Origin: Sycon ciliatum
Taxonomy: Eukaryota > Porifera > Calcarea > Leucosolenida > Sycettidae
Assembly: GCF_964019385.1 (NCBI RefSeq)
Contig: NC_088645.1
Span: 18,249,180 to 18,313,179 of the forward strand
Reading direction: 5' to 3'
Length of the DNA: 64,000 bases
Every line of letters starts with the position of its first letter. The stretch's first letter is position 1. Positions 13,889 through 58,237 of the stretch are shown here, one piece after another. The notes under the pieces are model-generated. The model was given only the letters and a program-made list of their open reading frames with translations, did no database searches and was not told where the DNA came from. The translations under genes were made by a program, and so were the position numbers.

Positions 13889-14071
13889 TAATTATACAGT
13901 CAGAGCTCACTGACTTGTCAGTTTGAGCACTCTGGCAAGGTACGTTCGGGCCTGATTGGAAATTTTTATTTCCATTGCTATCAGGTTCGGCCTCATTCCT
14001 CTGTGCTGCGCTGACGAGTCCACAAAGGACGAAACAGTTCTGTCCGCAGATTGAGTAATTATACAGTCAGA
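13889..14071 (+). mobile_element. Retrozyme family A monomer with 16-bp TSD
   Basis: A single copy of the unit that is tandemly repeated at 57488-58213, lacking about 70 bp of that unit's 5' portion. It is bounded by the perfect direct repeat TAATTATACAGTCAGA (13889-13904 and 14056-14071). The insert ends at ATTGAGTA, just past the hammerhead. The duplication length fits target-primed reverse transcription by a LINE. Retrozymes are known small non-coding retroelements carrying hammerhead ribozymes, reported in plants and animals; this assignment rests on the ribozyme core plus the target duplication. Confidence 0.85.
13998..14055 (+). ncRNA. Hammerhead ribozyme, type I (family A)
   Basis: All core elements are present. 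Stem I is CTGCG paired with CGCAG, plus an outer CTC/GAG with internal loops TGTG and ATT. The core is CTGACGA. Stem II is GTCC/GGAC with loop ACAAA. GAAA follows. Stem III is ACAG/CTGT with a 2-nt loop, then UC at the cleavage site (predicted between 14044 and 14045). The very short stem III is typical of animal type I hammerheads, which often cleave better as dimers. Confidence 0.9.
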
Positions 14072-16555: not shown

Positions 16556-16741
16556 TGGACATGTACATGGCCATGTATAAAGGCTTGAAAACAAGAAATA
16601 TGGAGTATACATGTACATATCCATGGGCTATATTAAATAATTCGTCTGCGTGCCGGCCAGGAAAAAAGGTGGACATAATGAATGGGAATGATTATAAAGC
16701 ACAGGTAGGATTCGTAATAATTATACCGTATAGATGTACAC

Positions 16742-16799
16742 AATGATGCAGACAGCCAGACTGTTTCGGCCAATGAGGCCTCATCAGTGCAACTCCGAG
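16742..16799 (-). ncRNA. Hammerhead ribozyme, type I (family B, unit 1)
   Basis: On the minus strand: stem I TGCA/TGCA with outer CTC/GAG; core CTGATGA; stem II GGCC/GGCC with loop TCATT; GAAA; stem III ACAG/CTGT with loop TCTGG; then UC. Predicted cleavage lies between 16751 and 16750. Confidence 0.88.
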
Positions 16800-16981
16800 C
16801 TTAAAATAGAATTGAACTGTCAGCCATGGCCACGAGAACCACAGACATTAGGACAGTTCGATGTACTAGCGCTGAGAGTGCTCAAACTGCTAGAAGCAGC
16901 GGGCAAAGCATAAAGCTAACCAGCACAAGTGCGTCCTATCGAGAGTGCTGAACAAGATCGAAATCGAGGAGCAAAATACTC

Positions 16982-17039
16982 AATGATGCAGACAGCCAGA
17001 CTGTTTCGGCCAATGAGGCCTCATCAGTGCAACTCCGAG
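16982..17039 (-). ncRNA. Hammerhead ribozyme, type I (family B, unit 2)
   Basis: Identical in sequence to the unit 1 ribozyme. Predicted cleavage lies between 16991 and 16990. The distance between cleavage sites gives a 240-nt monomer. Confidence 0.88.
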
Positions 17040-17251
17040 CTTAAAATAGGATTGATCTGTCAGCCATGGCCACGAGAACCACAGACATTAGGACAGCTCG
17101 ATGTACTAGCGCTGAGAGTGCTCAAACTGCTAGAAGCAGCGGGCAAAGCATAAAGCTAACCAGCGCAAGTGCGTCCTATTGAGAGTGCTGAACAAGATAG
17201 AAATCGAGAAGCAAAATACTCAATGATGCTGATGTGCCGTATAGATGTACA

Positions 17252-18133: not shown

Positions 18134-19044
18134 CTAATGACATCCACAGTCACTGGCGCTGAATCCGGCTACAGTGAGAGTCTGAAACAGCCATGACGTG
18201 GACGTTAAAAAGAATGTGAATGAATGCAGCTGGGAAGCGACGCATTGCACCCGGGCACTGCCTCCTCTACCCATCACTAGCAAATGGTAGAGGTACATAT
18301 GATATGCACTCGGAGCTGCAGGTTTGTAGATGGCATACTCACAAGATCCTTCGCAACTTTTCAGGCTTATGTGCTTGGGCATGAGAATTTTTTCCTGCAT
18401 GATTGCATTCAAGTCGGCAATGGCTAGGTTCGTGCTTTGCAGCTGGCATGGACTGGGCTGCAGACGTGGGGGCATGATGTTGCTTCCCGATGCGCGTCGG
18501 CGGCGCCCCGTACTCAGGACAGCGGCGTGGTCGACCCTTTCTTTGGTGGTTGAGATTCCGTGAAGCACTTTCTTCTCTAGATGTTCATCGGGAACTATGG
18601 TGGCGATGATTATGCCAGTACCGGCGCATCGTAGAGCACGTTTGAGAGCTCTTTTCAACTCCGCCAATACTTCACTCAAAACCACCGGTACAGCGGAGGC
18701 CACATATCCATGCATGAGAATGCTGATGCTCATGTTTCGGTTGTCGTATTCATGGCACAGATCGTCTGTAATATTTACCTCGCTCCGGTCATTCATTCCT
18801 AGTTCACGCTGATACATGGGAGTTACGAGAATTGCCGATGTTCTTGAAACAGCGGCATGGCTGTTCCGTGCCGTTTGGTTCACAACAGTGTCAAATACAT
18901 CCAGGAACCGTCGAAATCCTAGTGTGGCGCTTTGGCACTGACGTCCTGGTGCTCTGCTGCCATTTAATTCATACATCATTTGAATCGTGGCTGTGATGTT
19001 GGTGAATCCAACACGGTTGGAGGTTGTGGCGTACAGTTGAGCGT
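18134..19044 (-). CDS. TGF-beta ligand terminal exon
   Basis: Starts after the acceptor TTTCTCTGTGCTCAG and ends at TAG (18134-18136). It encodes most of the prodomain, the RRRR cleavage site and the whole cystine-knot domain. Confidence 0.85.
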
Positions 19045-19934
19045 CTGAGCACAGAGAAATGCGAATACACACTTGTATCAAAAATCATGTTTCAAGTACA
19101 AACACATGTATGAATGAACTCGTATTGCGATTGATTCTGAGATTTTGCGAAGTAATTCAAAACCGACTGTCCAGTACGGGATACACTATGTCTAGATTGG
19201 TCACTGAGTAGAGTTGGTGGGAGACAAAGTGTTGCGATAATGTGAGAGGAGACTGTTGTAGTGTATTGATACTTGAAGTAGTATAAAGGGAGACTAGACG
19301 GTTGAAGAAGACACACGAAAATCCCGCATCATATCGGCCGTTCATAACGGGAAAGTACCAAACTCCAAAGCCTTCAAAATACAGGAGGTAACAAGGACAG
19401 TCATCTACATGTACATACATTGCACTGACTGCAAGTGTTCACGTTTCCTGAAGTCCGACAGGATCCATCCAGTTACCTAACCCGTATCTGGTGATCTGAA
19501 CGCAAACAAACAGTATTCAGCCGCATGCCTGTGCTACTGATCAATGGAGATTTTGTGCTAATAACCCATAGTCACTTCGGTGTTTTCCACTTTACCAAAA
19601 TATAAGTATGTACATCGTATATAGTCATGCTGACACGACGAATTCACTGACCATATAAAGATGGCACCAGTGCGGCAATAGAAGCAGCTCTGGTTGGCGC
19701 GGCGAAAGCTGCGTGCCTTCTACACGGCTTGGGGAGACGATGATGAGGGGAGAAATAGCGGACAGTTCGCTTTACCCGTCTTGTGGTGTTGTATGTAGCC
19801 TGCCAATGACCGTATAATTCGCCAGGCAGAGAAGCAGCTCTTGTACCGATCCCTACATGTACATGTATAGCCGCAGCTATTGATATGATCAGTCCTAGCC
19901 GGCTGCAAGGAAACAGTTCACGATGCATAGCCAT
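18134..19934 (-). CDS. TGF-beta superfamily ligand (two-exon model)
   Basis: Exon 1 is 19934-19652 and exon 2 is 19044-18134, joined in phase 1, predicting 397 residues. The N-terminus has a signal-peptide-like stretch (CSRLGLIISIAAAIHVHVG). The prodomain follows, then a furin-type RRRR at residues 275-278 and a 119-residue mature region. Its six cysteines (294, 325, 329, 362, 394, 396) have the spacing of the cystine-knot domain, ending CGCH. The position usually occupied by the first Cys of the CC pair, which makes the inter-chain disulfide, is Gln (VQCVAS). That resembles GDF9/BMP15/Lefty-type ligands, which lack it. The W...W block before the first knot cysteines is also absent. The product is a secreted ligand for type I/II receptor serine kinases; subfamily cannot be assigned. 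The exon 1 link rests on matching splice phase and the signal peptide, so an extra exon between is possible. Confidence 0.7.
19652..19934 (-). CDS. TGF-beta ligand putative first exon (signal peptide)
   Basis: ATG at 19934 (a second in-frame ATG at 19928); the donor GTCAGT follows 19652. Encodes a hydrophobic signal-like segment and a basic stretch. Phase 1 at the donor matches the next exon. Confidence 0.5.
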
Positions 19935-26526: not shown

Positions 26527-26977
26527 TGTGGCTCATAAACCCAGAGATATTCTCGAAAGGCAACTAACTGTCTTGAACCATACTCAGATTTACTTCGATG
26601 ACCATTCAGAAGAATACCATCACAAGCAGAACTCTGGAAAACAACAACTGTGCCTACGCTCCGATGAACTTATATAGCAAGAGCGACGGCCACATCCAAC
26701 ACCCTGCCTCTACACCAACACTTAGCACATGCATGTAGATAAGAAGAGCGCGTGATGACGAATAAGGTGCTAAGTGCTAGCGTAGAAACAAGGCGCTAGA
26801 CGTAAGAAGAGCGCGTGATGACGAATAAGGTGCTAAGTGCTAGCGTAGAAACAAGGCGCTAGACGTGGCGCGTACAGGCAACGATTTAGCAGAGCATGGA
26901 GAGGAAAACTGTTCAGCAACATTCAAAGAAGCAGAACGAGAACGAATAATACTTCAATTGAGGCTACCTCCGTAACA
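26527..26977 (-). repeat. BEL/Pao 3' LTR
   Basis: 451 bp. Contains an internal direct duplication of about 63 bp (AAGAAGAGCGCGTGATGACG ... GGCGCTAGACGT twice, about 26740-26865), present identically in the other LTR, so it predates this insertion. Confidence 0.95.
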
Positions 26978-27224: not shown

Positions 27225-30200
27225 TCACTCTGGCGCATACTCCAGTGGGCACAAGCGGTTGATGGGTCGCACAAGAGTACGATCACCCACCTGCACCTTG
27301 GCAACACGTACTCGTTCATCCTTCCCGGGGTAGACTTCCAGAACCCGAGCCAAGGGCCATTTACGCCTAGCGGTGTCTGGAGACAGCAACAGCATGACAT
27401 CACCAACCTTCACGTTGCGTTGGTCTGCCGTCCATTTGACCCGCTTGCTGAGCTGAGGCAGCCACTCCTGGATCCAGCGACGCCAGACATGCCCAAGCAG
27501 CTCCTGAATGCGTTGCCATCGCTGACGCGGATGATCAGACTCCGGTAGGACGACTTCTCCAAGTCTCCCGTTCAGAAAATGATTCGGGGTGAGGGGCAAA
27601 TTGTCGTTGGGGTTGACTGATATGGCAGTGATCGGGCGAGAGTTGATCAGATCCTCTGCTCCGGCAAAGGCGGTCAGCAGATCCTCGTCGGTGATGTCAC
27701 TGCCAGACAGAATGTGGTAAATAGCACGTTTGGCTGCCTTCACCATAATCTCGAACACACCACCGAAATGAGGTGCTGCTGGAGGGTTGAACGACCAGGA
27801 CACACCATGATGTGCGGTGCCCGTCTGGATTTTGGTTTGGTCGATGTTGCGAATGAGGTCCTTCAGCTCCCGAACTGCACCAACAAAGTTTGTGCCATTG
27901 TCCGATATGACTTGATTGGGAAGGCCGCGCCGGCTCACGAACCGGAAGAAACAGTTGATGAAACTAGATGTGTCGAGTGAGAATGCGAGCTCCAGATGTA
28001 CAGCGCGCGTCTCCAGACACGTGAATACACACAGATAGCGTTTGGTTCTGGCCCGACCGCGTCCCTGCATGGTGAGGAAGGGGCCGGCGTAGTCGACGCC
28101 CACGCGGCTGAACGCACGATGAGAGGGCACGATCCGACTGACCGGCAGCGGTGCCATTCGTTGCCCAGCTGGCTTGCTCCGGTACCGGCGACAGACTGCG
28201 CATTCCTGTTCCCACTCGTGGACGGCCTCCCGTGCGGCGATGACCCAATAGCGGGCGGCGAGCGCAGACAATGTTGCGTTCGTCCCCGCAGCGTGCTTTC
28301 CCTTCTCGTGTTGGAACCTGATTAGCATCTTGGTCACGGCATGCTTCCGCGGCAGGATGATCGGATGGACAGCGTCTCGTGGCAGGAACTCCGCATACTG
28401 CAAGCGCCCTTCACAGCGTAGAACACCATCGTCGTCAAGAAATGGACACAGCTTGGCCAGCTTACTGGTAGCATGCACTGCTTTGCGTTTCCTCAGGAGG
28501 ACTATCTCAGCAGCGAACGCATCACGCTGCGTGTTCCGAACGACGTACAGCTCTGCGTCAGCCAACTCAATCGGGGTGAGCTCTCCTGCCAGGCGATCCT
28601 CTGCTGCTGCACGGCAGTTCGAGATGAACCGCCGGACCCATGTGAGCGTACGGATGGTCTTCTGCCAGTCTAGCCACTTTGCTGGGTCAATGATCCAATC
28701 CTGCTCGGGTGGTGCATCGTTGGCACTTTGGACGTCTGCATGATACGTTTGCATGTCCTGCGAGCGGTTGCGTGGCAAACCTTTTACATCCTGCCGAGCG
28801 CCGGAGCTGGGCTGAAGCGTAGGGCTGGCAGGCCATGGCTCGTCGGTTGACAGGAATGCGGGCCCAGTCCACCATAGGTCCGATGATGTCAGCACTGCTG
28901 CAGTACACCCACGAGAGACCAGATCTGCGGGGTTCTGGTCAGTGGTCACATGCCGCCATTGCTCTGGCTGTGTGAGACGACGAATCTCAGAGACGCGATT
29001 GGCCACGAATGTCTTGAACTGCCGACTGTGACCATGGATCCACCAGAGAACGTTCATGCTGTCAGACCACAGATAGATATCCTGCATCTCGAGAGCAAGG
29101 CTGACGACGGCTGCCAAACGGGCTGCCATGACGGCGGCTATCAACTCTAGTCGTGGGATGCTCACCGCTTCCAGCGGGGCGACTTTAGACTTAGCTGCAA
29201 CCAGCCGGCATGTAGCTCCACTGGGGTCCTTGGAAATGATGTAGGCGACAGCACCCATTGCCTTCTCGGAGGCATCTGCGAATACGTGCAGCGACGACAC
29301 ACCGTCAGCTGCCATGAGTGGTCTTGGAATGCGTAGCGTCTGCAGATCCCGCGCATCAGCAATCCACTCCTTCACCAGCTTGTCCACAGAGGGCTCCAGT
29401 GGGTCGTCCCAGGTCGAGCCTCGCAGCCACAGTTCCTGGATGAGCATCTTGCCTCGAATGATGTACGGCGCCAGCAGACCCAGCGGGTCAAAGACGGATG
29501 CTACCCGTTGTAGCACTCTCCGCTTGCTGAACTCCTGGCCGGAATCCGGTGGGATGGCAAAACTGAAAGCGTCGCTAGCAGCGGACCACGAGATGCCTAG
29601 CGTCTTCACTCTTGGCAGCTCCCCTGGTGACAGGTCGATGGAGCGTCCATGTTCTGACTCAGGTATCACTGCCAGAAGCTCGGTCGAGTTTGAGAGCCAC
29701 TTCGTCGGGTGCATGCCGGCCGACTCCCACACCTTCACAAGAGACTTGTAGAGTGCGATGCCATCAGCGACGGTTGGCACGGAATCAAGCGTGTCGTCCA
29801 TGTATGTGGACTTGTTGACTGCTTCAGCCGCACGTTCATCCGTACTGGTGAGCACCCTCGCATGCTCCTGGGAGACGAACTGAGCGAGGAATGGTGATGA
29901 GGCGAGTCCGAATACCACACGCTGGAACTCATACACTGCAGGCTGCGCATCGGAATCACAGTTGCGCCATAGGAATCGTTGGTATGGCCGGTCGGATTTG
30001 TGCACACCAATCTGCAGGTACATCTGCTTGATGTCACAGGCAATAGCAACAGGATGCTTGCGGAACCGCAGGAGCACGTCGCAGATGTCCCGTTGCAGCT
30101 TCGGCCCCTTGTTGAGGAAGTCGTTCACTCCGACGCCTTGGAACTGCGCCGACCCATCAAACACAATCCTCACTTTCGTTGTCTGCTTGTCCAGACGGAC

Positions 30201-33200
30201 CACCGGAAAGTGAGGCAGGTACCAGATGCTGTGTGGTCGTGGTTCCTCCTTCGGCACACGGCGGATATAGCCCTTTGCCAAGTACTCTTGGATGATGGCG
30301 CTGTACTTGGTACCCAGACCGTCCGTTAGGAGCAGCTTCCGCTCGGTGCCAATCAGTCGTTTGCGTGCCATGGCGAAGTTGTCGGGCAGGACCGGTGGTG
30401 TTGTCTTCCACGGAAGGCCCACATGATATCGACCGTCGCTGAACGCCAGGGATTCCCGTGTCTTTGTGAGCAGTTTCTCCTCCGCCGGTGACAAGTGTGG
30501 CAAGTCGGGTACGGCTAGCTCCTCGACGTCCCAGAAGCGACGCAGTAGCTGACTGATCTCATTGCCGCCGAGCTGCAGCTGCGCATGGTACGCATGCCCC
30601 ATACGCGAACTGCCTGGGCTCGCCCGTACCGGCCCCACACAGGTCCATCCTAGCGGGGTGAGCCGTGCGACTGGTTCACCCGGCTTACCAGTCACCTCGT
30701 GCAAGGACTGGTGCGCTGCGACACAGTCCAGGCCGAGCAGAACGTCGACTCGATCAGGCTTGGCGGTGGGAGGGAAACGTATCCCTTTGAGATGTGGCCA
30801 TGTCGATGCGCCGCGGTGCCAGTTGACTGGCTTCAGGCGTCCTGTTGGGTGCCGCACTGTCCAAGCATGGAGGTCTGTGCTGAACATGCCGTTGACACTT
30901 GCTACGCTGCAAGACACATGCACCGACTGAAATGTACTCGGTGTTCCGTCCAACGTGTTGACCGTGATGCTCTGCAACTCCCCGTGCAGACCAAGTTCGT
31001 GTGCTACGCCCTCACTGATGTAGCTCATGGTGCTGCCATCGTCCAACAGTGCATTGACGTGAATGCTTGTGTCGCCGTGCTTGATGGTGACCGGTATCGT
31101 CCTCAGGCTGATGGTCACGTGGGTGCTCTGGGAGGCGTAGCACTCCTCTTCCGTGGACGGAGAACCCTCCGTGACGACGGAGCAGAATGTCTGCTGCTCT
31201 GTTTGGCTGGACGACTGTTGGGTGCTAGCTGTGTTTGGCATAGCGCATCCTGCCCGACGCCCTGAGACAGAGTTCGCTGCTGGTGCCTGTGTGGACGGGC
31301 GTGTCACGCTGCTAAACACAGGGCCTCTGCTCTGTGTGGCGTGCAGAAAGCGATGATGGAGCTTCGTGCACCCGTCCAAACCACATGGCCGACTCCGCGT
31401 GCAGTCGCATCCATTGTGGCCGACATCCAGGCAGCGGAAACACACACCTGAATCCTTGGCAATGCGCCATCGCTTGTTCACTGTCGCAGCTTTGAAGGAT
31501 AGGCACTGCCACAGCTTGTGTTCACCTTGGCACACGATGCACTTTTGTGATTTGGCTGCCGGCTGGCTGCTGGTCACGAACGTGCTTGGTCGAGGCGACC
31601 GGTGGACCTTTGTTGACTGTGACGGCTCTGCCTTACTCACGGGAATCAAGCCAGCTTTCGTCTCCGCAGCGGAGACCATGAACTCTGCTTCCTGGGTACA
31701 GTACTCAAGCAGCTCTTCTACCGACTCAGCCTTAGCTTGTTCATGCCGCCACCGGTGGTAGCGGGTGATCAGCTGCTCATCCAGCTTCTTGAGAAGAGTC
31801 AGGTAGAAGGTTCCGGCCGCCAGCTCAGTAGCTCGGCCCGAGTCCTTCAAGTTAATGACAGCGACTGCCAGCAGTTCCGAGAACCGCTCCAGGTCTCTCG
31901 GGTGCTCCTTCCGCACGGGTTTGAGGGCCTCAATTTCTTCCAGATGGATGGCAACTCGGCGCCTCTCTCCGCCATATTTTCGGTGCAATAGGGCCTTGGC
32001 TGCATCATACGCAACGATGGTGTACCCGAATCGGTCGATGGCTTTTAACGGCTCACCCTGGACATACTGTCTTAGTCGAAGCATCTTGCATTCCGCGGTT
32101 AGCGGTGCCTTGTCCACACAGGTGGAAAACGCTGCCCACCAGGACTCGAAGCGCCGTTTATCGCCATCGAATGTGGGTATTGTGATTTTCTTCATACTCG
32201 CCCATGGCCCGATGTCGGCTGCTAGTGGTCGTTCACCCGTCAGTGGAGGCTGATACATATGGCTGCTCGAGGACCCAGTCGGTTGGGGAGCCATGGATGT
32301 GTTGGGGACTGTCACAGCGGGGACGACCGTTGATGCACTTCCAGCTGCACCTCCAGCTGCAGGGACCGTTCTAGGGGGTAATAACACACTCACTGCTGGT
32401 CTCAATCTGGACTGAGTGCTGGCAGTGGACTGGTGGCTCTGACTAAACTGAACAGACTTCTTGGTCAGCTGGGCCGTTCCCAGTGTGGTGTTGCTGACGC
32501 TGCTCCTCTTGGTGGGCTGACTGACTGCGCTTGGCATAGTACTACTGGCAGTACCATCATTAGCACTGGCCACTGACACACTGCTACCACTGGAACCGGT
32601 CACTGGCGCTGATGCACTGCCATTGCTGGTCTGATCAGCACTAGAGGTACTGGCAGTAGATGGTGTTGGAACCCGGAGTGGACTTGTGACACCTTGGCTC
32701 TCATGAAAGGCCAAGGCACTTAGGCTACTAGGAGAAGTTTTCATGCCAGATTCCACCAGCCCAGATCCAGCAGACCCAGAGTACAGCATTGACCTGGCCC
32801 CCAACTGGCCAAAGTCAGACCGCTCCGCACCCACCTCCGTCAAGTGATCTGGCGTCATCATTGGAGCTGAGTACCTCGCCGTCGAGTACTGGCTGTATCC
32901 CAAGCCATGACCAGCTCCAAACCGCCCACCAACACTAGCGCTGTACGTGGCTTCTTCCAGTGCTCTGTTCACAGCTGCGCTGTACTTCTCCTCAAGCTCT
33001 TCCAGCTCCGCAACCAGCTTCCTCCGTTTCGACAAGTCTCCGTCTCCAGAGCGCAGTCCCAGGAGATCGCCCACGACGCCTGCTGCACCAGAGTACGCGT
33101 GTTCCAGATATCCAAGGTCGTCATCACCAATCCCCTCTCCGTTCACTATCCGAGTCAGCAAACGTCTTCGAATGTTGGTGAAATTGGCCTTGGCATTGAT

Positions 33201-33452
33201 CTTCATCGTTCTCAGGCATTCTTCGCTGAACGCCGGTTCTTCATCATCATATTCTTGTTCTTCGTCATCAATATCGGAAACTCCAAAATCCTTCACCGTG
33301 CCCTCTGACTGCTGAATGCTGCTTGAACCGCCACTACGGGGGACCTGCTGTTCGTCCGCCAAACCTACGTCCGCCCCGACTTGGTCCGTTCCTTGCAGAC
33401 TCTCGTCACTTGCCACTGACAAAGAACTCTTTGTTTCCGCCATGGTTAACAT
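27225..33452 (-). CDS. BEL/Pao Gag-Pol polyprotein
   Basis: 2075 residues in one frame, starting MLTMAETKSS (a second ATG three codons in). Approximate residue order: Ser/Thr-rich N-terminus; DUF1759-like Gag region from about 419 (MKKITIPTFDGDKRRFESWW); zinc-knuckle-like Cys/His region from about 637 (CIVCQGEH, CFRCLDVGHNGCDC); DUF1758-type aspartic protease with DDGS at about 803; reverse transcriptase with YMDD at about 1216; RNase H (VFADAS) at about 1387; integrase HHCC region from about 1706, then a DDE core (VDYAGPF about 1786, SDNGTNF about 1847, GGVFEIMVKAAK about 1902); and a DUF5641-like C-terminal domain near 2000 (PLARVLEVYPG). Every catalytic motif looks intact, so the element may be competent. 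Domain order is diagnostic of BEL/Pao. Confidence 0.95.
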   Translation of the reverse strand: MLTMAETKSSLSVASDESLQGTDQVGADVGLADEQQVPRSGGSSSIQQSEGTVKDFGVSDIDDEEQEYDDEEPAFSEECLRTMKINAKANFTNIRRRLLTRIVNGEGIGDDDLGYLEHAYSGAAGVVGDLLGLRSGDGDLSKRRKLVAELEELEEKYSAAVNRALEEATYSASVGGRFGAGHGLGYSQYSTARYSAPMMTPDHLTEVGAERSDFGQLGARSMLYSGSAGSGLVESGMKTSPSSLSALAFHESQGVTSPLRVPTPSTASTSSADQTSNGSASAPVTGSSGSSVSVASANDGTASSTMPSAVSQPTKRSSVSNTTLGTAQLTKKSVQFSQSHQSTASTQSRLRPAVSVLLPPRTVPAAGGAAGSASTVVPAVTVPNTSMAPQPTGSSSSHMYQPPLTGERPLAADIGPWASMKKITIPTFDGDKRRFESWWAAFSTCVDKAPLTAECKMLRLRQYVQGEPLKAIDRFGYTIVAYDAAKALLHRKYGGERRRVAIHLEEIEALKPVRKEHPRDLERFSELLAVAVINLKDSGRATELAAGTFYLTLLKKLDEQLITRYHRWRHEQAKAESVEELLEYCTQEAEFMVSAAETKAGLIPVSKAEPSQSTKVHRSPRPSTFVTSSQPAAKSQKCIVCQGEHKLWQCLSFKAATVNKRWRIAKDSGVCFRCLDVGHNGCDCTRSRPCGLDGCTKLHHRFLHATQSRGPVFSSVTRPSTQAPAANSVSGRRAGCAMPNTASTQQSSSQTEQQTFCSVVTEGSPSTEEECYASQSTHVTISLRTIPVTIKHGDTSIHVNALLDDGSTMSYISEGVAHELGLHGELQSITVNTLDGTPSTFQSVHVSCSVASVNGMFSTDLHAWTVRHPTGRLKPVNWHRGASTWPHLKGIRFPPTAKPDRVDVLLGLDCVAAHQSLHEVTGKPGEPVARLTPLGWTCVGPVRASPGSSRMGHAYHAQLQLGGNEISQLLRRFWDVEELAVPDLPHLSPAEEKLLTKTRESLAFSDGRYHVGLPWKTTPPVLPDNFAMARKRLIGTERKLLLTDGLGTKYSAIIQEYLAKGYIRRVPKEEPRPHSIWYLPHFPVVRLDKQTTKVRIVFDGSAQFQGVGVNDFLNKGPKLQRDICDVLLRFRKHPVAIACDIKQMYLQIGVHKSDRPYQRFLWRNCDSDAQPAVYEFQRVVFGLASSPFLAQFVSQEHARVLTSTDERAAEAVNKSTYMDDTLDSVPTVADGIALYKSLVKVWESAGMHPTKWLSNSTELLAVIPESEHGRSIDLSPGELPRVKTLGISWSAASDAFSFAIPPDSGQEFSKRRVLQRVASVFDPLGLLAPYIIRGKMLIQELWLRGSTWDDPLEPSVDKLVKEWIADARDLQTLRIPRPLMAADGVSSLHVFADASEKAMGAVAYIISKDPSGATCRLVAAKSKVAPLEAVSIPRLELIAAVMAARLAAVVSLALEMQDIYLWSDSMNVLWWIHGHSRQFKTFVANRVSEIRRLTQPEQWRHVTTDQNPADLVSRGCTAAVLTSSDLWWTGPAFLSTDEPWPASPTLQPSSGARQDVKGLPRNRSQDMQTYHADVQSANDAPPEQDWIIDPAKWLDWQKTIRTLTWVRRFISNCRAAAEDRLAGELTPIELADAELYVVRNTQRDAFAAEIVLLRKRKAVHATSKLAKLCPFLDDDGVLRCEGRLQYAEFLPRDAVHPIILPRKHAVTKMLIRFQHEKGKHAAGTNATLSALAARYWVIAAREAVHEWEQECAVCRRYRSKPAGQRMAPLPVSRIVPSHRAFSRVGVDYAGPFLTMQGRGRARTKRYLCVFTCLETRAVHLELAFSLDTSSFINCFFRFVSRRGLPNQVISDNGTNFVGAVRELKDLIRNIDQTKIQTGTAHHGVSWSFNPPAAPHFGGVFEIMVKAAKRAIYHILSGSDITDEDLLTAFAGAEDLINSRPITAISVNPNDNLPLTPNHFLNGRLGEVVLPESDHPRQRWQRIQELLGHVWRRWIQEWLPQLSKRVKWTADQRNVKVGDVMLLLSPDTARRKWPLARVLEVYPGKDERVRVAKVQVGDRTLVRPINRLCPLEYAPE

Positions 33453-33550: not shown

Positions 33551-34001
33551 TGTGGCTCATAAACCCAGAGATATTCTCGAAAGGCAACTAACTGTCTTGA
33601 ACCATACTCAGATTTACTTCGATGACCATTCAGAAGAATACCATCACAAGCAGAACTCTGGAAAACAACAACTGTGCCTACGCTCCGATGAACTTATATA
33701 GCAAGAGCGACGGCCACATCCAACACCCTGCCTCTACACCAACACTTAGCACATGCATGTAGATAAGAAGAGCGCGTGATGACGAATAAGGTGCTAAGTG
33801 CTAGCGTAGAAACAAGGCGCTAGACGTAAGAAGAGCGCGTGATGACGAATAAGGTGCTAAGTGCTAGCGTAGAAACAAGGCGCTAGACGTGGCGCGTACA
33901 GGCAACAATTTAGCAGAGCATGGAGAGGAAAACTGTTCAGCAACATTCAAAGAAGCAGAACGAGAACGAATAATACTTCAATTGAGGCTACCTCCGTAAC
34001 A
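33551..34001 (-). repeat. BEL/Pao 5' LTR
   Basis: 451 bp, near-identical to the LTR at 26527-26977. Presumed promoter LTR for the minus-strand transcript. Confidence 0.95.
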
Positions 34002-34813: not shown

Positions 34814-45901
<11,088 letters not shown>

Positions 45902-50160: not shown

Positions 50161-51420
50161 CACCTCAGACCTGCCCATCGCGGAAGCGATGATAGCGAAC
50201 AGCTATGTTAGACATAGCAACTTGTGCTGGGATTACACCATTCAACAGCTTGCAAGGCTGATGAATTGACCGCCACTATTTTCTAGCCTGGTATCCACGA
50301 CACAGCTGATTGAAGTGGCTTTTTCTGGCCAGTGAATCCCTATTTTTCATTTTTTTTTTACACACACACACACAAACACACATACTTCCTCCGTTAGCAA
50401 AAACTTCGTGATGGATTTTGATGGATACGAAAACGCTTAGAACAGGTCAAGAACAGTTTGTATCCACTGCAAATCACTGGACGAAGGTAGTTCAGCTTAT
50501 GTACAGCGTCTTTACAAGAGAAACTGGTGGCGGAATGAGCACAGAGTTCCGCTTGCGTCGCTTTCGCTCGACTCATTTTTGACCCTGCATTGTTGTCGTC
50601 ATCTGTTGCACGCGAGTCATCATATCTCCCGAGTCGTTGCTCAGCTTGTTTCAGCCTTGCCTCGGCTGCTTTGATCACACTCCGCTGAACTTGATGTCGT
50701 CGTCTTTCAAGTAAGTTGGCTTTCAAGCTGCGTGATCCGCCACGGTGGCGATTACTAGTTTCCACCAGGGAGTTGTACAAATATTTTACGACTCCCTGGT
50801 TTCATCTCTGGTCTCCAGAACTCCGCTAAATGAGGCGTAAAGTCACAGCCACATTTATTCCATTTTCTCTGATGGATACTCCTGCCAGCACTGAACGGCA
50901 GCGGCTAGCAAGCTCAGTCCAGTCAACTTTCCTTAGCCACGAGACTCACGTCGGAGTGCAGACTTCTGAAAGAATGCATGGTCATCAGCATTCGATTCTG
51001 GGCCTTCCGCAGGTTGAACAAGAACTTGAATTCAGAGTTTTTTCACTGCGCCGTGGGTTCGGAGCAGCTCCTTGTTCACTCGCTCATTGTGTGGGCTCGC
51101 TGGTCCGTTCCACCGCTCTCTAACACTCTATCACTCTCAAACTCAGTGCTAGAGTAGTAGAGAGGCAAAGCAGCGCATTATCCCTCGGAGAAGTTGTATT
51201 TCAGTTTCGTTCGACAGGACCGTCAACACCTATGTTGTCACAGCGTAACCATCGATTCTGCTCGGCTTGTTGTGAATGGCCGCTTTCCTTGCATCGTACC
51301 TCCTTCATGGCATGCCAGGGAAGGCCGAGAAAGTGATCGCGCCTCATTTCAAGGCAGTTTGTGCCCAAACCAGTCCCTCAAAAATCGATCACGAAGTTTT
51401 TGTTAATTAACGGAGGAAGT

Positions 51421-51493
<73 letters not shown>

Positions 51494-54400
51494 CACACAC
51501 GTCTGTGACACACACAAGCACAAACACACTGAACGTATTTCGCCATACCACTTACATGAAGGTTGTGGTTGGAGCGCACGTCGGCACACTGCCTCCTCCA
51601 CTTGTCGCAGTATGCGTGGCAGTCAAAGAATTCGCACTCTTCATCAGTGTCACAGCGCGGCTGGCCAAGCATCTCCTTCATCTTGCGCTCAAAGAACGAG
51701 ATATCAATATCGATTGCCTCCACCTCCAGCTCGTTTCTGCATTCCGACGACTCATCTGTATTGCGTTCCATCCTGACACCTGGATCATCTGCCCATTCAG
51801 TATCATGCGAGGATAGTGCGTGAACGTTTTCGGAGTTGTCCGAGCAGGTGGTTGCCTGTCTACGCACGCCAAAGTTCTCCCCTTTGACGTCGCACAGGTG
51901 GAAGACGCCGTACCTAGTGGACGCGAGGCGCTGCTCGAGTGTCAGAAAGCCGAGGGCGGTGCGAACACGCTCGCGCCACGAGATGTGCGGCAGCAGCATG
52001 AGATTGAATGCAGATGGAGGTGGTCGAGACGGCACGAGGTACGCATGCCCGCACGAGCCAATCAGGTTCGGTGTGACGCCGGAGTTCGCGAGCAGCATCA
52101 GGTGCACAAACTCCTCCTGGTCGAGCAGTGACCAGAGGCTGTGTAGCTGTGCAGTCGACGGTGGTGGTAAAGGCGGTGTGGAACTGGGTGGTGCCAGGCC
52201 GTACCGGTCCATGAACTTCAGCAGTGCTGTGCTGTTGGTTCGATACGGTGACACAAACGCATCCATCAGGTCCTTGAATAGCTGGGCATTGAGAACAAAC
52301 ACAATGATGGCTGTAAAAGGCTGAGCAGTTCTGTTATAATTTTAGAGTGAATACGCTGTTGACACTGTGTAACCATAGGACAGTGAGAAGACTCCCAAAG
52401 ATCATACCCCTAACTGCAAAGGCTACATCAAATTCATAAATTTCCACAGGTCACGGAATCTTACAACATCAGTTGACATTGTCAACAGAATTCGTAAGCT
52501 CCACTTTGCAAAACTTAGACTTCTCTTAGAAGACAAGGGGACCTTAGCCTTGTGGCAATAGACTTGGAGGCAGTAGTTTGATAAGGCCAATGACGAGTTC
52601 GATTGATGCAGATATTCCAACAGAACTTAACACCGTTGTAGATTTTACTTGAAGTAAACATGAGCTTCAAAATCTAGATTTCCGGGTAACGGAATAATTA
52701 TGAAAAAAATGCCCATGGTTCGAAATCGAACCATGGACTCCAAAGGGTTAAAACAAGATACGAAAACTGAGGCGCAGCCGAGGTTTTTATAAATGGTTTT
52801 GATTCCCTACAAAAACTCAGCCTTGGCATTTATCTTATACATAAGGCTGGTGTATTGTGCTGCGATGTCTACAGCGAACCTGCTCATTATTGCTCCAACT
52901 AGCTTTGTTTCACATACAGTCGTGGCAAGTGAAATCCTACACTTGGCATAAGGGACTACACCATGCAGTGTGCAGCCCCTGCAACCCTGCATAGGTAGCA
53001 CATGTGTTACACACAACTTTTATCTGTCTCATGACAGAACTCGTACTCATCACAGTCAAGGTTCACAAGAAAAGTTCAAAGGTGCAGGCGGAAATGCATG
53101 GGGACTGGATACCAATACTCCTTATGTGTACCATGTCTGTGGAATGTGTGTATCTACTTTGTGATCTTTCGACCTGTTTGGGATGCATACGGCTCTGATG
53201 TGCGAATTAGGTACAGCTCATTACATCATTGATATTAGTGTTGAAACGAATAATCGAATAATCGAATAATTTAGAATATTCGTGGGGTGAACGAATAATC
53301 GAATAGTCGTAGGAATTATCAGAAATCGAAAAAAAAAAAAAAAAAAAAAAAAAAACCGATCTATGCTAGGCCTTGACGGATTATGCTAATATTTTCGTGA
53401 AATTATGCTTTTCGCATTGCTGAAAAAATTGCCGAATTATGCTATTTTTATGCTAAAAGTTATCAAATTATGCCGCATTATGCTGCACATTTGCGACGAA
53501 ACACCACAGCACTAGCCAACTTGGTTTCGCAAAAAACATGCATGACGACTAGCGCAAGAGCTTTTTTTGTAGAGGGCGTTGTACTGAGTAGCAAAAGTTC
53601 AACGGGGTCAACGCACCGTCCGACCTAGCTACGACCGTCACTGATTGTAGTGGACTGGACATGTTATCAAGGGAGTCGTAAACCTACGACTTCCTGGTGC
53701 ATCTACTTGTACTTGTACTTGTAGGACATGACTTGTGCAACTGTATGGAATTTGATGCGAACAGGCGGATTATTCCAATTATTATTTATGCGATTCGTAT
53801 GCAATTTGCCTCGAATTATGCGATTATTCGATTTTGGTAGGAATTATGCGAAAAATTATGCTAGCATAATCCGTCAAGGCCTAATCTATGCTCGGTGCAC
53901 CGGTGCTGACCCTACTGATATTTGCACTGCGTAGATCTGCTCGTAGTATTTCTTCTCAATCTCTTCTCCTCCAAGATTTAATCTCCTATCGGTATCTATA
54001 AATACTTCTGTTCTTTCCATACGAGGGAAACTCTTGGCGGTACAGGTTAACCGGTTTTGCACCTCCACATAACAAAATCCGATAATCAGCAAAAAAATCA
54101 AAAAAAACCGCTTAAAAAAGTGCTGAAAAAGTGTTGAAAAATGCCATCATGCGTATGATAGAATATAGATTATTCGTTCGATGGAGGGCGAAATTATTCG
54201 ATAGATTATTCGTTCGAAGAATCCGTGTTCGGTTTAAACACTAATTGATATCCATTTGTGGCGCTGTTCCCTATGGCAAGTAACGGATTTCACTTGCCAC
54301 GACTGTACAATATTCATTATCAGAAACACTACAAGAACTCGTATGGTTGGGTAGTGCCTCGTAGATGTGCAGGAGCTAGGAATCACGTCGCTGGATGTCT

Positions 54401-57461: not shown

Positions 57462-57487
57462 TAATATATTATAATATATATATACAC

Positions 57488-57533
57488 GCTGACGAGTCCA
57501 CAAAGGACGAAACAGTTCTGTCCGCAGATTGAG
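57488..57533 (+). ncRNA. Hammerhead ribozyme, 5'-truncated (family A array)
   Basis: CTGACGA, stem II, GAAA and stem III are intact, but the upstream strand of stem I is replaced by flanking TATACAC sequence. Cleavage would be at 57522/57523, probably inefficient. Confidence 0.75.
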
Positions 57534-57701
57534 TATTTCGCTCCTGCTCTTGTAGCAGTTGAGCACTCTTGCGTGGGGTAGTGCCTTTGCTGTTTGCGTT
57601 ATGCAGAGCTCACTGACTTGTCAGTTTGAGCACTCTGGCAAGGTACGTTCGGGCCTGATTGGAAATTTTTATTTCCATTGCTATCAGGTTCGGCCTCATT
57701 T

Positions 57702-57759
57702 CCTCTGTGCTGCGCTGACGAGTCCACAAAGGACGAAACAGTTCTGTCCGCAGATTGAG
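57702..57759 (+). ncRNA. Hammerhead ribozyme, type I (family A, array unit)
   Basis: Complete core identical to 13998-14055. Predicted cleavage 57748/57749. Confidence 0.92.
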
Positions 57760-57927
57760 TATTTCGCTCCTGCTCTTGTAGCAGTTGAGCACTCTTGCGT
57801 GGGGTAGTGCCTTTGCTGTTTGCGTTATGCAGAGCTCACTGACTTGTCAGTTTGAGCACTCTGGCAAGGTACGTTCGGGCCTGATTGGAAATTTTTATTT
57901 CCATTGCTATCAGGTTCGGCCTCATTT

Positions 57928-57985
57928 CCTCTGTGCTGCGCTGACGAGTCCACAAAGGACGAAACAGTTCTGTCCGCAGATTGAG
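57928..57985 (+). ncRNA. Hammerhead ribozyme, type I (family A, array unit)
   Basis: Complete core. Predicted cleavage 57974/57975. Confidence 0.92.
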
Positions 57986-58153
57986 TATTTCGCTCCTGCT
58001 CTTGTAGCAGTTGAGCACTCTTGCGTGGGGTAGTGCCTTTGCTGTTTGCGTTATGCAGAGCTCACTGACTTGTCAGTTTGAGCACTCTGGCAAGGTACGT
58101 TCGGGCCTGATTGGAAATTTTTATTTCCATTGCTATCAGGTTCGGCCTCATTT

Positions 58154-58211
58154 CCTCTGTGCTGCGCTGACGAGTCCACAAAGGACGAAACAGTTCTGTC
58201 CGCAGATTGAG
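58154..58211 (+). ncRNA. Hammerhead ribozyme, type I (family A, last)
   Basis: Complete core. Predicted cleavage 58200/58201. The element ends 13 nt later at GAGTA, then a TA run. Confidence 0.92.
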
Positions 58212-58237
58212 TATATATATATATATATATATATATT
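58212..58237. repeat. (TA)n tract
   Basis: TA run between the retrozyme array and the oligo-A (minus strand) tail of the neighbouring LINE fragment. Confidence 0.95.

Follow-up and report, generated by a model that had tools for sequence, protein, structure and literature searches.

By which route does an RNA built of ribozyme-bearing units return to DNA, and where on the unit does copying start and stop? This question is raised by an insertion at positions 16726 to 17251 of the window, by which we mean the whole stretch of 64,000 nucleotides of Sycon ciliatum DNA under analysis.

Anatomy of the insertion and its hammerheads

The insertion contains two direct copies of a 240-nt unit (16737-16976 and 16977-17216), which are 97% identical (232 of 240 positions the same, eight differences). 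On either side lies the 15-mer CCGTATAGATGTACA, at 16726-16740 and 17237-17251, with 100% identity between the two. The aligned element covers 496 nt (16737-17232), i.e. 2 x 240 + 16, and is read from the minus strand. The unit towards its 5' end (16977..17216, unit position 1 at 17216) served as the source of the reference unit. In the unit towards the 3' end (16737..16976, position 1 at 16976), the last four bases lie within the target-site duplication, so that element and target share 4 nt there. At the 5' end a partial unit follows, which comprises either 13 exact nucleotides (17217-17229, unit positions 228-240) or 16 nucleotides up to 17232 with one mismatch at 17230; the insert thus starts at most 2 nt from the ribozyme cut site. 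Depending on this mismatch, seven or four extra bases of minus-strand sequence (within 17230..17236) precede the element, possibly as a result of slippage or non-templated addition. The duplication copy at the element's 3' end (16726..16740) reads TGTACATCTATACGG on the minus strand, its partner at the 5' end is 17237..17251, and the flank test for this locus gave p = 0.002. Besides the units there is almost nothing in the insert, and none of the listed open frames of at least 150 aa overlaps it. Realignment bore out the initial annotation, which had described two 240-bp units plus 16 bp between identical flanks, with a minus-strand hammerhead in each unit.

A complete minus-strand hammerhead core is found in both units, at 17027 in one and at 16787 in the other. 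The parts are CUGAUGA, a 4-bp stem II, GAAA, a 4-bp stem III, GUC at the cut and a 4-bp inner stem I. Core and helices of a type I hammerhead extend over 16979..17041 in the first unit, with the cut between 16991 and 16990, and over 16739..16801 in the second, with the cut between 16751 and 16750; helices I to III were verified on the family consensus and in subfamily A, a relative described below. From the second cut, a 14-nt tail (16737..16750, minus strand) leads to the presumed start of reverse transcription. An Rfam search of the window at the gathering cutoff gave zero matches. Subfamily B, to which the insertion belongs, reached only 19 bits, with RF00008, the wrong type (type III; E 0.55), while the best score of its relative, subfamily A, was 30.1 bits, below the cutoff of 34. 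The assignment to type I is therefore based on the core, the helices, two pair changes between A and B that affect both sides of a helix, and the occurrence of a genome-wide family. Of these two pairs, the one in stem I adjoining the core is G-C in A and A-U in B, and the second pair of stem II is U-A in A and G-C in B. Across the family, 45 intact core motifs were counted in 37 insertions. The view that the element is a retrozyme, already put forward in the initial annotation, is supported by the hammerhead core, the helices and the genome-wide family. The predicted ring fold of the window unit was no stabler than that of shuffled sequences (z +1.1; for A, z -2.8), and fold stability was dropped as support for a ring in B. 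Matches of the hammerhead-core pattern in IMG/VR (25 loci) and GTDB (4 loci) were rejected as relatives of A and B; they look like unrelated hammerheads because the similarity is confined to 25-42 nt around the core.

Subfamily A is represented in the window by an array of 3.2 identical 226-bp units on the plus strand (57487..58214), whose 3' end, GATTGAGTA, lies in a TA tract. A single 5'-truncated copy of about 160 nt (13901..14060, plus strand) runs across the cut site and is accompanied by the target duplication TAATTATACAGTCAGA. Aligned from the cut site, A and the B consensus agree at 163 of 210 positions, and the alignment score of 157 compares with a maximum of 68 in 200 shuffles. The two are homologous and hence subfamilies of one lineage; B is not the separate second family it had first been taken for, and its opposite strand relative to A, also stressed at that time, is meaningless for a mobile element. 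The block ATTGAGTATTTCGCTCCT, which includes the fixed 3' end discussed below, is identical in A and B.

Some other features of the window were recorded. Minimal hammerhead-like motifs (CUGAUGAGGGG plus a CGAAAC) occur at 41541-41591, 44598-44634 and 45158-45208. Their stem III was taken to be short, a trait reported for Penelope-like elements, and the latter two motifs lie within a 90% inverted repeat (44435-44808 versus 44985-45352). A coding Penelope element at 41-46 kb was discarded, as no open frame there exceeds 196 aa. The window insertion itself was likewise rejected as a Penelope-like element, since 496 bp of 240-nt units are too short for a reverse transcriptase and a GIY-YIG nuclease. 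An unbroken BEL/Pao-type frame of 2075 aa (27225-33452, minus strand) is flanked by 451-bp direct repeats (26527-26977 and 33551-34001; 99.8%) and is 100% identical to a Sycon ciliatum protein over the 601 residues searched; this element is probably a recent insertion. Two further minus-strand frames match a TGF-beta domain (18134-19084, E 2.5e-07) and a FAM69 protein-kinase domain (51403-52341, E 1.8e-31).

Ends, lengths and target duplications of genomic copies

Hundreds of copies are present in the genome (538 Mb, 313 contigs), and those of B were collected in two ways. Scoring of the best 40 of 705 first-look candidates gave at least 78 matches on 13 contigs. These best-scoring 40 records, fetched with their flanks, represent 36 distinct loci and are biased to long copies. 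Insertions were aligned to a rotation-free five-unit reference, which makes the alignment end independent of unit rotation. The second sample was chosen by its junction, namely the tail together with a next base that differs from the array-internal one. When up to two mismatches were tolerated, 264 matches to the tail pattern were counted, internal ones included, compared to 19 for a reversed control. The junction pattern contains tail and cut letters, for which reason this sample is uninformative on the fixed end, cut passage and target overlap; on the other hand, it imposes no selection for length beyond about 17 nt. Another 28 distinct insertions, the shortest of 19 nt, came from this sample, and insertions of 14 nt or less lay below the reach of the sampling used.

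Altogether, 105 records were reduced to 73 distinct loci by the removal of 32 copies with similar flanks. Nine of these loci were left out of the set with an end in the tail: L055, which runs on to position 7 of the following unit and possesses tail plus overlap; L127, L134, L135, L137, L138 and L139, where the match lies at or near the end of the fetched stretch and the tail is internal; the composite L093; and L079, a true exception, which ends at position 42 without the tail. After L065 had been merged with L062 by hand, 63 distinct insertions remained. Duplicated copies with shared flanks were L097-L098, L113-L115, L117-L119 and L072/L074/L075. A similar 5' flank was also seen for L093, L137 and L138, common to the latter two and partly shared with L093; L093 has an apparent second short tail after position 44, and L138 starts alike before its fetched stretch ends.

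The 3' end is fixed in each of the 36 distinct insertions from the best-scoring records, where it follows the hammerhead cut (226/227) at a distance of 10-21 nt. It falls at unit positions 236-244 in 35 of them (at 240-241 in 24) and at 247 in L055. The 5' ends of the same 36 insertions are distributed all round the unit. Mean coverage in 37 insertions is 44.6 over positions 1-20 and reaches 73.7 over 221-240; this 5'-truncation pattern indicates that reverse transcription starts at a fixed point and stops at variable ones. Subfamily A behaves in the same way. Once flagged copies are set aside, 15 A rows are left, and 14 of them have their 3' end at or a few bases from GATTGAGTA, 13 nt past the A cut; L054 and L049 are duplicates of one locus, and counting them once gives 13 of 14. 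L096 is the sole exception, and several A copies exhibit target duplications. These counts comprise the loci fetched for B and those of the window, which are not a random sample; a whole-unit search of the genome for A came back without candidates, the probable reason being that the words of this unit occur too often. Copies of A and B were found near each other at L049, L054, L042, L055 and L062, in the same TA or GATA microsatellites and partly in opposite orientation.

The initial annotation had regarded the insertion as a precise dimer and had suggested a survey of copy numbers. About two turns are indeed present in the window copy, but the dimer is not a distinct product, as the lengths, both samples taken together, make up a continuum that extends from 19 to 788 nt, with one end fixed. 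One unit or less is contained in 33 of the 63 distinct insertions; 30 exceed 240 nt and eight exceed 480 nt. Prompted by the window copy, which starts at the cut, it was considered that ribozyme cutting sets the 5' ends, but this was rejected as a general rule because the 5' ends are scattered. Irrespective of the number of turns, seven of 64 5' ends lie at 226-241 where 4.3 are expected, which is not significant (P 0.13). Among the ten insertions of 241-310 nt, however, six have lengths of 241-254 nt (P 0.006, post hoc), which places their stops between the start point and the cut site after a single turn. The 5' ends of this full-turn cluster spread over positions 227-241, and none of the 63 insertions is 255-268 nt long. 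Two causes are conceivable for the cluster: the enzyme may be blocked on reaching the point from which it set out, or it may run off the 5' end of a cut template. Further clumps of 5' ends occur at 198-204 (8 of 64, expected 1.9), 209-215 (6 of 64, expected 1.9) and 125-135 (7 of 64, expected 2.9), in windows picked after seeing the data; perhaps these are stops at RNA structure.

Target duplications were scored against 947 control pairs composed of flanks from different insertions. A score of at least 9 was reached by 30 of 63 distinct insertions and by 19 of the 947 mismatched pairs, while it was absent in the other 33 insertions. The 15-bp duplication claimed for the window has therefore been corroborated at the locus and in the family. 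A coincidental duplication, named in advance as the finding that would speak against an insertion, can be put aside together with the notion of a chance tandem duplication next to a coincidental flanking repeat. This reading, for which only the general repeat frequency of the genome speaks, is negligible, given that 27 of 64 true pairs but only 13 of 947 mismatched ones score at least 10 and that the family occurs on 13 contigs.

In the 30 scoring insertions the duplications measure 9-24 bp. They start at unit position 239 (the TA of GAGTA) in 14 cases, at 238 in seven and at 237 in six. At least 2 nt of the element's own end are repeated by the duplication in 22 of the 30; among the 15 of these 30 that were not chosen by their tail, nine show such an overlap. 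By the strict count, zero overlap was observed in five of the 30, the window copy included. An overlap of this kind is a trace often expected from pairing between primer and RNA. Even very short insertions have duplications: five of the shortest 16 (up to 68 nt) score at least 9, for example L121 (29 nt, 24-bp duplication), L100 (29 nt, 16-bp duplication, in an AAT repeat) and L141 (43 nt, 13-bp duplication). For the two shortest, L131 (19 nt) and L090 (21 nt), no clear duplication was detected, and these could be chance matches. Taken together, the fixed start, the frequent target overlap and the 5'-truncation series point to target priming.

The template and its copying

The cut site is crossed in 63 of 63 insertions, a figure that is partly built into the samples, as the junction pattern includes the cut and the top hits are long. 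The same holds for short insertions of 27-45 nt, some of them with duplications. Since copying starts at about position 240, a cut monomer ends at 226 and insertions nevertheless cross the cut, the template must have been uncut or re-ligated at this point. Information on the template also comes from derived variants common to the units of one insertion. In 35 unit pairs they account for 0.109 of the variable sites, compared to 0.014 between insertions, and the within-insertion value was reached in 0 of 2000 resamples. Four shared variants were found in the window, three in L038, four in L055 and six in L067. As 22 of the 35 pairs share no derived variant, this result depends on few loci, a pair being uninformative if its template equalled the consensus. 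The mosaic insertion L047 behaves differently. Two of its units share five variants, whereas the 5'-most third unit lacks all four it covers, and either two templates or a later exchange is needed. Repeated copying of one molecule is the best explanation of the shared variants, with L047 speaking against it. Of the two routes initially proposed, a multimeric transcript and rolling copying of a circular RNA, both are possible; the shared variants favour the circle, the mosaic does not.

Set beside what can be read directly from the DNA, namely the fixed 3' end, the variable 5' end, the target duplications, the cut passage and the template variants shared by units, target-primed reverse transcription that begins at a fixed internal point of a ring, with a partner enzyme acting in trans, is the likely mode of insertion. 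The retrozyme transcript would be cut by its hammerhead and the monomer presumably closed into a ring in Sycon ciliatum. The reverse transcriptase of another element, as putative partner, would nick the genomic DNA, in many cases at a site that contains TA. The 3' end of the nicked strand would pair with the RNA past the foot of helix I, 13-14 nt downstream of the cut, and prime copying; such pairing is suggested by the fixed 3' end and the frequent target overlap of 2-4 nt. Copying would then circle the ring and stop variably, giving rise to 5'-truncated, one-turn and multi-turn insertions with duplications of 9-24 bp, and the window dimer would represent a two-turn run halted within 2 nt of the cut site. 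In a more specific form, rolling-circle target-primed copying of a closed ring at a genomic nick would start at the 3' foot of the hammerhead and tend to stop after one full turn on meeting its own start. For this form we consider the case evenly balanced. If it is true, the hammerhead has two jobs, the making of the ring and the marking of the reverse-transcriptase start.

The alternative that survives best retains the same fixed-start, target-primed copying but replaces the ring by a linear multimer, transcribed from a tandem array and incompletely cut. An uncut transcript explains insertions spanning the cut equally well, L047 does mix units of two sources, and a full-turn cluster which ends at the cut, with 0 of 63 lengths at 255-268, is what run-off would give. 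By contrast, units within one array differ by 0.4 to 18%, and transcripts of such old arrays would yield mixed units, while the units of an insertion share template variants. The A units of 57487-58214 are identical to one another, two units of L038 differ at 1 of 240 positions, and the full-turn 5' ends are spread over 227-241 instead of lying at 227 alone. A linear multimer is therefore unlikely, if clearly more credible than the following alternatives. Serial copying of cut linear monomers by end-to-end template jumping, with units joined at the cut, would suit L047, in which the switch occurs near a unit boundary (position 204 of one unit to 26 of the next). It is very improbable, however, as copying sets in near 240, beyond the end of a cut monomer at 226, insertions of 27-45 nt run through the cut and the unit-shared variants favour repeated copying of one molecule.

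Later change has to be considered as well. The two copies of one duplicated locus, L050 with 371 nt and L077 with 131 nt, are exactly one 240-nt unit apart, which shows that units can disappear from an array once it has been inserted; the change is best read as a loss because sub-unit insertions have no internal repeat to expand from. That unit number changes after insertion would fit single-unit insertions amplified later by unequal exchange or slippage, like a satellite. As 30 of the 63 insertions exceed one unit and share their fixed end with the short insertions, this origin of the arrays is more doubtful still than template jumping. We thus prefer target-primed copying of a ring.

Relation to known systems

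Metazoan retrozymes are described as bearing type I hammerheads and occurring from dimers upward without LTRs, with units of 150-450 bp and target duplications longer than 4 bp (PMC7229834, PMC7761336, PMC4918200). Coral units measure 220-240 bp (PMC7229834), and Nematostella repeats show 15-bp duplications like those of LINEs (PMC4918200). The Sycon family shares a type I hammerhead in each unit, recognised by core and helices I-III, a G+C content below 50% (48.3% in the B units, 49.2% in the consensus, 49.6% in A), short tandem units from dimer upward, even though 33 of 63 insertions comprise one unit or less, and duplications of more than 4 bp (9-24 bp in 30 of 63 insertions). Judged by its sequence, the window insertion is a real retrozyme insertion and belongs to the metazoan non-LTR retrozymes. 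These are an already known class, and the window element itself is ordinary for it, since the type I hammerhead, unit size, dimers and long duplications have all been known before; what appears to be new is the anatomy of the insertions. The near-identical units of some copies suggest that the retrozyme was probably active recently. Plant LTR retrozymes also possess hammerhead-flanked repeats and circular RNA intermediates, but differ by a type III hammerhead, rings of 600-800 nt, 4-bp duplications, a PBS and a PPT (PMC4918200, PMC7761336). For B, with its type I hammerhead and duplications of 9-24 bp, this class was ruled out by the type I layout and the 15-bp duplication of the window copy.

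Closure of the retrozyme monomer into a ring has been reported for other animals, and tandem cDNA synthesis from a primed ring has been proposed, with target DNA or small RNA left open as the primer (PMC7229834). In the metazoan retrozyme papers, whose elements share with B one type I hammerhead per unit, short tandem units and long duplications, we came across no account of a fixed 3' end, a 5'-truncation series or sub-unit insertions (PMC7229834, PMC7761336, PMC4918200). The host of B, a calcareous sponge, is a further difference. We found no paper on a hammerhead ribozyme in a sponge (Porifera) or on a ribozyme of Sycon ciliatum, and none of the literature matches listed joins retrozymes and target-primed reverse transcription; supplements, preprints and subscription papers were outside the search. 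The return of animal retrozymes to DNA is an open question, for which a start fixed within a few bases in both subfamilies makes an exact RNA site and junction available for biochemical tests. Rotation-free unit alignment with both ends plotted also offers a survey recipe for other genomes.

A parallel to the start point is found in a Penelope-like element, in which reverse transcription is reported to begin inside the RNA, downstream of the hammerhead, at AT-rich cuts (PMC11167929). Common to Penelope-like elements and B are a hammerhead upstream of the start, the internal start itself, AT-rich targets and tandem copies, but the former are autonomous and encode their own reverse transcriptase and GIY-YIG nuclease (PMC11167929). 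Moreover, the start in the Penelope-like element is described as not homologous to the cut DNA, while an overlap of at least 2 nt is frequent in B, and it follows the ribozyme cut at a distance of about 85-92 nt (computed from the numbers in PMC11167929), compared to 13-14 nt in B. The B start point is analogous to the Penelope-like start. A second parallel is provided by SINEs and 5'-truncated LINE copies, which have a fixed 3' end, a variable 5' end, target duplications of similar size and a partner enzyme acting in trans. What separates B from them is a template that appears to be closed or multimeric, so that insertions can exceed one full length.
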